A DNA stretch of 64,000 nucleotides. Source: Bacillota bacterium (GTDB lineage: Bacteria; Bacillota; Clostridia; Lachnospirales; CAG-274). The stretch covers positions 1-64,000 of the forward strand of contig JAFYGI010000041.1 in NCBI GenBank assembly GCA_017543265.1, given 5' to 3'. The position numbers and the translations under genes are program-made. The notes under the pieces were generated by a model that worked only from the letters and a program-made list of their open reading frames with translations, was not told the origin of the DNA and did not search any database. Of this stretch, positions 2-55,268 are shown one piece after another (within the stretch, counting starts at the first letter, position 1; the number at the start of each line of letters is the position of its first letter).

Positions 2-526
2 GCGGTAATCTTAGCCGATATTCGTTCAATGGCAAAACTTGTGATAGAAGATGAAAACACGGCAAGAAATTCTTTTCTTTCAAAAAAACAACAGCGCACC
101 TCTCGCCAAACAAAAAATGATACCAAAAGGCTGAACGAAAGTAAACACCGCCTCGAAGAACTCGAAAAACTGATGCAGTCGGTCTATGAAGATAAGGTTA
201 TGGGCAAAATTCCCGAACATATATGTATAAATCTTCTGCAAAAATATGAAACTGAGCAGCAAAACCTTGTAGCATACATATCCGAACTTGAGGGAAAACT
301 CTCGGCAGAAAAGCAGGATAAAGAAGATGTTGATGAGTTTATCCGCAGACTGAAAAAGTATTTTGATGTTCGGGAACTGACAAGAGAGATCTGTCTCGAA
401 CTTATCGAATATGTGACCGTAAATGCCAAAACAGACGATAAGCCGCGAGAGATCAACATCTATTATAAATTTATCGACAAACCATTGTCGAATAAAAGAA
501 CGCTGTATGCCACCACTACAGCCTAA
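2..526 (+). CDS. Large serine recombinase, C-terminal part (5' end outside window)
   Basis: The reading frame is open to the left edge of the window, so this is the C-terminal end of a longer protein; an internal ATG at 29 is not a credible start. About 175 residues are visible. They are rich in Lys/Glu and form a probable coiled coil (roughly residues 30-115), followed by the segment VRELTREICLELIEYVTV and a short beta-rich end (INIYYKFIDKPL). This layout matches the C-terminal zinc-ribbon/coiled-coil region of large serine recombinases of integrative elements, which cut and rejoin att sites. The catalytic serine domain is not in view, so activity cannot be judged. The debris that follows (hairpin blocks, IS3 remnant) suggests the end of a decayed mobile element. 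Family assignment is by motif memory; moderately sure. Confidence 0.7.
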   Translation, partial: AVILADIRSMAKLVIEDENTARNSFLSKKQQRTSRQTKNDTKRLNESKHRLEELEKLMQSVYEDKVMGKIPEHICINLLQKYETEQQNLVAYISELEGKLSAEKQDKEDVDEFIRRLKKYFDVRELTREICLELIEYVTVNAKTDDKPREINIYYKFIDKPLSNKRTLYATTTA

Positions 527-582
527 TTTTAAAACCACCCAAACAGTTGTGCCTATTTGGGTGGTTCACAAAAGCAAACCCG

Positions 583-841
583 ATCCCCCTCGGGGATTGC
601 ACTCGGCTTTAGCCGAGGCAACATAGCGTACAGGCTCTTCATCTGCCGCCGAAATTCCAGTAGGAATTTCGGTATAACTCATAACCAACGGAATTGCAAG
701 CAATTCCAAATTCAGTGGGTGCTTGAACATTGCACCGCAAAGATAGATGCGGACAGGCTTTGCCTGGCTTTTGCGCAGCAAAAGTGCTGACCCACTGAAT
801 TTTAAGTAAGCACCCCCGCTTTAGAAGCGGGGGACTTACTT
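583..841 (+). repeat. Multi-hairpin mosaic element, copy A
   Basis: This non-coding stretch is almost entirely short perfect inverted repeats. ATCCCC-ctc-GGGGAT lies at 583-597, then CTCGGC-ttta-GCCGAG at 602-617, GAAATTCC-agta-GGAATTTC near 651-670, and GGAATTGC-aa-GCAATTCC near 690-707. A 13-bp perfect stem (708-720 with 790-802) encloses three hairpins at 735-752, 754-766 and 768-784. Last is a compound hairpin (804-810 with 835-841, inner CCCCCGCTT/AAGCGGGGG at 813-821 and 825-833). Parts recur at 1192-1247 (other strand) and at 55066-55127 with changed but still complementary stems. The last hairpin resembles subterminal palindromes of IS200/IS605 elements, but no tnpA or tnpB is seen. 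Confidence 0.75.
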
Positions 842-903
842 AGTTTGTTAAAAAAAGCGGCAGCCATCTTTGCACAGAACCAAAAGCAATAAGATTTCGG
901 TTT

Positions 904-1186
904 ATGTATGATAATCGCTCTAAATTTCAGGTAGTGAAGATGGCAAAAGTATTGGGCGTAACTGAAGCGGGATATTATGCGTGGAAAAGGCGCTTAAATC
1001 GTCCCGAGACGGAAGAAGAAACAAAAAGAAAACCCTGCGGCAGGCTATTCGCCGCATTTATATAGAATATTTCGGCATTTACGGGAGCCGAAAAATACAA
1101 CACGAATTAAAGCGAAGTTACGGCATAGAAGTCAATCACAAAGTTGTGGAAAATGTTATGAAGGAACCGGGAGTTATATCGAAGTT
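904..1186 (+). pseudogene. IS3-family transposase OrfB remnant, frameshifted and truncated
   Basis: From ATG 904 the frame reads like the start of IS3 OrfB (FQVVKMAKVLGVTEAGYYAW, then KRRLNRPETEE). In the A-rich stretch at about 1019-1034 the homology moves back one base into the frame containing the HTH_21-type region (IRRIYIEYFGIYGSRKIQHE, about 1040-1105). After VMKEPG (about 1160-1175) similarity stops and the hairpin block at 1192 begins. The DDE catalytic core is absent. OrfA is not seen upstream. The single frameshift lies well inside OrfB, not at the usual OrfA/OrfB slippage point, so it is decay rather than programmed frameshifting. The open frame starting at GTG 981 is only the second half of this remnant read on into repeat sequence. 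Confidence 0.7.
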
Positions 1187-1191
1187 CACAA

Positions 1192-1247
1192 CTTTTGGCT
1201 GCGCCAAAAGCCAATTGCTGTGCAATTGTCCGCATTTATCTTTGCGG
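1192..1247 (-). repeat. Multi-hairpin mosaic element, copy B (inverted relative to copy A)
   Basis: Three perfect hairpins are packed with one-base linkers: CTTTTGGC-tgc-GCCAAAAG (1192-1210), CAATTGC-tgt-GCAATTG (1212-1228) and CCGCA-n8-TGCGG (1230-1247). Read on the minus strand they match copy A (735-784) in order, linker bases (a, then g) and the 8-base loop (aagataaa versus aagataga). The middle stem differs completely yet stays self-complementary (CAGGC/GCCTG in A, CAATTGC/GCAATTG in B). The block abuts the end of the IS3 remnant. Confidence 0.75.
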
Positions 1248-1259
1248 TTGAATGTATGT

Positions 1260-54946: not shown

Positions 54947-55268
54947 TCAGACTTTCATAAAAGTTTTTTTATACTGCGTTTCATAAATTATTTAAAGTAG
55001 TTGAATTTATTATATTAAGTAATTTTAGCGTCGCAGACTTAGTTTGAGTAGCTGAAGCTACTCAAATCCCGTAGGGATTGCGCGAGCTTTAGCTCGCAGC
55101 AACAAGCAGGACGAGCTTTGCCCGTCCGAGGAGCAAAACTTGATTTTGCTACAGATATTCGGGCAAGTGTATCTATGATGCGCGCAGCCCAAATGTAATT
55201 TGACGGAAAATGTCAATTTTCCGTCAAGGCTGTCGATTTCATCGACAGCCACAAACCGCCCCGAAGAG
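54942..55268. mobile_element. Hairpin-mosaic element (copy C) between 14-bp direct repeats
   Basis: The two copies of accgccccgaagag (54928-54941, 55255-55268) bracket about 313 bases of gene-free DNA. Perfect hairpins fill 55046-55250: GAGTAGCT-ga-AGCTACTC (55046), ATCCC-gta-GGGAT (55066), GCGAGC-ttta-GCTCGC (55082), GGACGAGC-ttt-GCCCGTCC (55109, one mismatch), AGCAAAA-n5-TTTTGCT (55132), TTGACGGAAAA-n6-TTTTCCGTCAA (55200) and GGCTGTCGAT-ttc-ATCGACAGCC (55228). Linker and loop words are shared with copy A. The direct repeat looks like target duplication or a duplicated terminator arm. No protein is encoded. 54942-55045 shows no structure. Confidence 0.65.

Follow-up and report, generated by a model that had tools for sequence, protein, structure and literature searches.

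A three-hairpin repeat of Bacillota genomes is probably a very small non-autonomous mobile DNA element

Results

The window, which is the whole 64,000-nt stretch of DNA analyzed here (C22:1-64000 of G000, a genome of 2.49 Mb in 63 contigs), opens with the C-terminal part of a large serine recombinase (DUF4368; 29..526, + strand), an upstream neighbor that lies outside the element described below. It is followed by a larger, palindrome-rich, IS200/IS605-like non-autonomous element whose 5′ end is missing (571..851, +; right end AAGTAAGCACCCCCGCTTTAGAAGCGGGGGACTT..GTTTGTTAA) and by a fragment of an IS3-type orfB (HTH_21, PF13276, 1.8e-15; 981..1189, +). Within and beside these features lie two copies of a three-hairpin unit. 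Copy 1, in a short-stem form, occupies 727..792 on the + strand and scores 72.2 bits with covariance model R2; copy 2, in a long-stem form, occupies 1184..1255 on the − strand, where the orfB fragment ends, and scores 82.8 bits.

A unit is ~61–69 nt long and consists of a 3-bp outer stem around three hairpins joined by single-base linkers, following the scheme nnA-CCG..AAGA..CGG-a-[stem 2]-g-[nTTT..AAAn]-Tnn-TGA. In copy 1, the outer stem GCA/TGC (732-734/785-787) encloses hairpin 1 (735-752; CCGCA at 735-739, loop AAGATAGA at 740-747, TGCGG at 748-752), hairpin 2 (754-766; CAGGC/TTT/GCCTG), and hairpin 3 (768-784; CTTTTGC/GCA/GCAAAAG), with linkers a at 753 and g at 767 and the 3′ TGA at 788-790, all on the + strand. 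Copy 2, read on the − strand, has the outer stem CAA/TTG (1250-1248/1191-1189) around hairpin 1 (1247-1230; CCGCA at 1247-1243, loop AAGATAAA, TGCGG ending at 1230), hairpin 2 (1228-1212; CAATTGC/ACA/GCAATTG), and hairpin 3 (1210-1192; CTTTTGGC/GCA/GCCAAAAG), with linkers a at 1229 and g at 1211. An earlier, sequence-only reading of this DNA had described one architecture common to both blocks, and its stems, loops, and linkers are confirmed base by base. The outer stem, absent from that reading, gives each unit a cloverleaf-like fold. Both forms are found in G000, with consensus TCAACCGCAAAGATARATGCGGACAATTGCGCAGCAATTGGCTTTTGGCTATGCCAAAAGTTGTGA for the long-stem form and TGCACCGCAAAGATAGATGCGGACAGGCTTTGCCTGGCTTTTGCGCAGCAAAAGTGCTGA for the short-stem form. 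Single units fold better than their dinucleotide shuffles (z = −1.7 to −4.8; −3.1 to −4.8 when folded as DNA). A hammerhead-like reading was rejected, since CTGA is present but there is no hammerhead core.

The interval 55046-55250, which the sequence-only reading had put forward as a third member of the family, does not belong to it: its score is 15–17 bits, whereas the two real copies reach 72 and 83. A separate stretch rich in hairpins, it shares ATCCC..GGGATTGC and CGAGC-TTTA-GCTCG modules with the larger element.

The two window copies sit in different settings. A 13-bp inverted repeat (708-720/790-802) forms a hairpin of the larger element, and copy 1 occupies its loop. Around copy 2, positions 1140-1251 match an IS3-orfB context in the relative G004 at 97%, positions 1222-1451 match G003 at 93% but in a different context, and these two matches overlap solely within the unit. 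A longer orfB in G004 (contig C41) carries a unit at the same point as the fragment in the window; a search of the IS3 flanks gave no gap-free junction. From these alignments, copy 2 is likely the joint between two loci, produced by recombination between dispersed copies. Because its two contexts overlap inside the unit, dispersed copies probably also serve as recombination sites.

G000 holds ~17 full or partial units, both window copies included, and the 18-base first hairpin occurs exactly 10 times in this genome; such numbers do not arise by chance. A first covariance model, trained on 14 copies from G000, detected units in all 6 genomes of the genus and in 38 of the 48 family genomes (9 of 11 genera), where a single genome carries up to 65 copies. 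A second model, applied to 392 genomes sampled from the order, found units in at least 76 of them, in at least 30 of 174 genera, and in six families; these counts are minima because the order-wide search scored the best 12 candidates per genome. The concern that no further copies might exist is thus set aside. Units are often tandem or nested within other palindromic repeats. In G000, tandem arrays of three lie on contigs C30 (69-nt period) and C47 (68-nt period), and arrays with periods of ~58–69 nt recur in distant genera; at L118, one unit is nested in another. Rfam gave no match at gathering or permissive thresholds, and a search of annotated phages and plasmids gave none for one family member. 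We found no description of the element in the literature on small repeats and hairpin elements of these bacteria, in a survey whose coverage left out most subscription journals.

Covariation was judged from pair counts with two controls, one shuffled and one slid. In a set of 83 distinct copies, standard pairs fill 99.2% of pair cells, double-sided changes occur in 18 of the 21 pairs, and the cells with such changes number 317, versus 78 expected by shuffling. The covariation score of these 83 sequences is 0.490, versus 0.116 when shuffled and at most 0.043 in the slid controls. A narrower set of 87 sequences agrees: pairing is kept in 98.8–99.2% of cells over both sets, in alignments that were fitted to the structure and so favor it, and the first, 14-copy MAFFT alignment gave a like picture. 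The random stem mutations that the sequence-only reading had named as a possible outcome are therefore not what these copies carry, and its observation of covarying stems alongside conserved loops and linkers extends to 83–87 distinct copies.

Sequence is invariant in ACCG..AAGA..CGG of hairpin 1, in the single-base linkers, in TTT/AAA of hairpin 3, and in the 3′ TGA, which ends 79 of 87 units and occurs most commonly as TGAC. Stem 2, stem 3, and the outer stem are free to vary provided that pairing stays, the last appearing as GCA/TGC, GTA/TAC, GAA/TTC, TCA/TGA, and CAA/TTG. The view that structure rather than primary sequence is preserved thus suits the covarying stems but not hairpin 1, where the sequence (CCG..AAGA..CGG) is conserved as well.

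The pairs themselves are almost strictly Watson–Crick. G-T (G-U) pairs make up 13 of 1,648 (0.8%) in the units, versus 15 of 213 (7.0%) in the stems of ten predicted tRNAs from the same loci (Fisher p = 4.6e-8, with related copies not independent). RNA families normally drift through G-U. The near absence of such pairs suggests pairing in DNA rather than in RNA, and the strict Watson–Crick change of both arms suggests either that the arms pair in DNA or that they are copied from each other.

Filled and empty versions of the same site provide evidence of insertion. In G004, a unit sits just past the third codon of a rayT-like Y1 gene, and the rayT orthologue in G001 (94–98% identical DNA) reads straight through with no unit (ATGGCAAGGTCAGCAAG). 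A G004 relaxase gene (PF03432) is filled, and its near-identical relative in G045 is empty. To these orthologous pairs can be added two paralogous ones: the larger host element, which is 153 bp long when empty (G004, G001) and 214 bp long with a unit in its apical loop, and another host hairpin, empty at L090 (AAGCATACGCTGACG) and filled at L217. The viral contig IMGVR_UViG_3300035512_000671 (L282:128-292) carries two 62-nt units, in opposite orientation, in one C5 DNA methylase gene; removal of both restores the reading frame, from which the empty state is deduced. A second G004 relaxase has a unit at the matching codon, and in both relaxases (L086, L218) the unit lies just before the metal-binding HxH motif.

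At resolved sites the net gain is 61–69 bp, with an ambiguous overlap of 0–2 bp and no clear target duplication. The right boundary of an insertion lies at TGA or TGAC, and the left one shifts by 2–4 nt from insertion to insertion; no constant tetranucleotide stands beside the unit, the flanks differing at all resolved sites. In 26 of 114 copies, a count inflated by shared host repeats, the flanks form an inverted repeat of ≥8 bp that closes around the unit, versus 66 of 1,675 control positions; loops of other hairpins therefore appear to be favored targets. Local GC skew revealed no replication-strand bias (19:19), in a comparison of low power because flanks were short, and orientation relative to genes is mixed (22:16). 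Our predecessor reading had offered two causes, selection for structure or structure-aware copying. Covariation is in keeping with that pair of options, whereas the low G-T content and the empty and filled sites favor mobile DNA over an RNA selected at its locus.

The larger element of the window (571-851) is a 5′-truncated copy of a repeat that has modular lengths of 153, 214, 290, and 357 bp in relatives, with up to ~60 left ends in G004 and further loci at L125-L135, L183-L195, and L201. A constant GTCA precedes the hairpin at its left end at 33 of 35 sites, hairpins lie near each of its ends, and its right end, GTTTGTTAA, terminates in TTAA. In these respects it looks like an IS200/IS605-type miniature element. 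No parent transposon of it was found, and no Y1 gene carries its left end; at the Y1 locus L182, a copy of its right end lies within the flank examined. Read on the other strand, the three-hairpin unit begins with GTCA or TCA next to a hairpin, and the GTCA tag common to both is a hint, but only a hint, of a common enzyme type. A second hairpin-rich host repeat, CCCCGCAAATAAT..ACATTTGCG, occurs at L017, L031, L032, L090, and L217-L226, with and without a unit, and its inner stem shows a double-sided change of its own (TTCGGC/GCCGAA versus TCTTCC/GGAAGA).

No enzyme was linked to the unit by any association in the genomes examined. A search for the Y1_Tnp domain (PF01797) found it in 2 of 6 genus genomes but neither in G000 nor in three of its five congeners. 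A rayT-like protein is encoded in 8 of 48 family genomes, with no relation to unit copy number, and Y1 genes are missing from several genomes rich in copies. A search around Y1 genes with the ends of the host element turned up no full element bearing them, and the GTAG/CGTC tag is absent from the unit. Adjacency does not point to RAYT as the mobilizer, since the only unit adjacent to a rayT gene is the insertion that interrupts it, and that site is empty in the orthologue.

Discussion

We consider it probable that the unit is a very small, non-coding, non-autonomous mobile DNA element whose folded single strand is the substrate for movement. A trans-acting enzyme, most likely an HUH-type single-strand nuclease (such as a Y1/REP-type transposase or a relaxase) or another single-strand recombinase, would recognize hairpin 1 together with the TGA(C) end, which on the other strand is GTCA 5′ of a hairpin. 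The enzyme would cut out or copy the folded strand, which would then enter DNA exposed in single-stranded form, with loops of other hairpins as frequent targets. Insertion at the end of an existing copy would generate tandem arrays. The concerted change of the two arms could reflect selection for a perfect hairpin in transposition, copying of one arm from the other at replication, or both.

Several other explanations account for part of these observations. The units could be a structured RNA, either a small RNA or a cis element of untranslated regions such as an mRNA stabilizer or attenuator, that spread by duplication and is kept for its fold. The strong covariation fits this idea, as does the placement of some copies, which, judged by eye, are flanked by a −10-like box and a start codon (contigs C47 and C28 of G000) or by a stop codon and a terminator (C29, C44). 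However, the stems contain hardly any G-U pairs, several genes (rayT, relaxase, IS3, methylase) are interrupted by copies, the units show no uniform orientation to genes, and Rfam holds no match. Moreover, old copies at a LytTR gene site (L234, L236, L237) have lost their pairing, and a structured RNA is unlikely. Passive spread is another option: hairpin-rich junk would be dispersed through recombination, slippage of tandem copies, and hitch-hiking in larger mobile repeats, and template switching during replication would keep its arms perfect. This would account for copy 2 as a joint of two loci, for the arrays of near-identical units, and for the many copies carried in larger repeats. Yet single units sit cleanly at unrelated sites whose orthologues are empty, and one viral gene has received two units separately; both findings call for an insertion step, which makes purely passive spread quite unlikely. 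An integron attC-type site, the folded single-strand site of a tyrosine recombinase, would share with the unit a folded, bottom-strand-like structure, stems with no need for sequence identity, and tandem arrays. The hallmark of attC is a conserved AAC/GTT core in the outer arms, whereas in the unit that core is not constant and the outer stem covaries freely; the arrays, too, lack cassettes, and this identity is highly improbable.

The remaining alternative is closer to the mobile element that we favor: the unit could be a strict member of the REP/RAYT system or a minimal, PATE-like miniature of the IS200/IS605 type, and a Y1 transposase would move it. The points in favor are the lack of a target duplication on insertion, hairpins near both ends, a short tag (TGA/GTCA) adjoining a hairpin, tandem and inverted pairs, and a larger host element with a constant GTCA and a TTAA end. 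Against it, the unit has no GTAG or CGTC tag and no constant target tetranucleotide, no Y1 gene is flanked by units, and several copy-rich genomes lack Y1 genes. Strict membership fails because these tested features (tag, Y1/RAYT partner, target tetranucleotide) are missing, and we regard it as possible but doubtful. Most likely, the unit behaves like a REP or IS200/IS605-type miniature element, with neither a GTAG tag nor a transposase partner.

It is useful to set the unit beside known systems. REP/RAYT systems comprise GTAG- and CGTC-tagged palindromic repeats (PMC3733652, PMC2817692), and REPs of the CGTC class also occur without a dedicated transposase (PMC3733652). Like REPs, the units are short, palindromic, many-copy repeats that are mostly extragenic and sometimes intragenic, occur as single, dimer, or grouped copies, and carry a short tag adjoining a hairpin (PMC3733652). 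Unlike them, they have three hairpins and an outer stem in 61–69 nt, where a REP is one 20–40 bp hairpin; hairpin 1 is fixed in sequence and stem 2 is free, the tag is TGA(C)/GTCA rather than GTAG/CGTC, and the host phylum, Bacillota, is not named among the carriers in PMC3733652. Rickettsia palindromic elements, of ~150 bp, enter protein genes and tend to stay in frame (PMC10969869). The unit resembles them in being small, palindromic, gene-entering, and, at the LytTR gene site, readable through on the complement, but several of its insertions shift or stop the frame.

Against DDE-type MITEs, the unit is likewise small, non-coding, present in many copies, biased toward intergenic DNA, and presumably mobile in trans; its terminal pairing, however, spans only 3 bp, versus inverted repeats of >10 bp, and it lacks a clear target duplication. 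Elements of the IS200/IS605 type include non-autonomous miniatures with a hairpin near each end, no target duplication, and a fixed target tetranucleotide; the PATE of Haloquadratum walsbyi is reportedly one of them. The unit is also non-autonomous, with hairpins near its ends and no target duplication, but it is much smaller, no parent transposon was found, and there is no constant target tetranucleotide. The double-hairpin and repetitive hairpin-forming elements of mitochondria are said to be tiny and spread through organelle genomes. These are likewise tiny and dispersed, whereas the unit is bacterial and has three hairpins, an outer stem, and a fixed hairpin 1.

A more far-reaching proposal, which we advance only tentatively, is that the unit may represent an undescribed minimal class of mobile DNA. 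Its substrate would be a ~65-nt, cloverleaf-like, single-stranded fold, read by its fixed hairpin and TGA(C), with arms renewed in concert, and moved across a Bacillota order and its viruses by an enzyme other than RAYT. If the unit is indeed a mobile element, it is among the smallest known, and its hundreds of natural variants separate the bases of a folded DNA that are read as sequence from those that need only pair. The spread of a palindromic repeat without a dedicated transposase would then become testable in common, little-studied gut bacteria. The covariance models also eliminate one source of false RNA and gene calls in these genomes, given that two reading frames are open on the complement. 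At one site, common to two genera, a decayed unit opens a LytTR response-regulator gene (L102, L234, L236, L237); it is read through in frame on the complement, and may supply the start of the gene.
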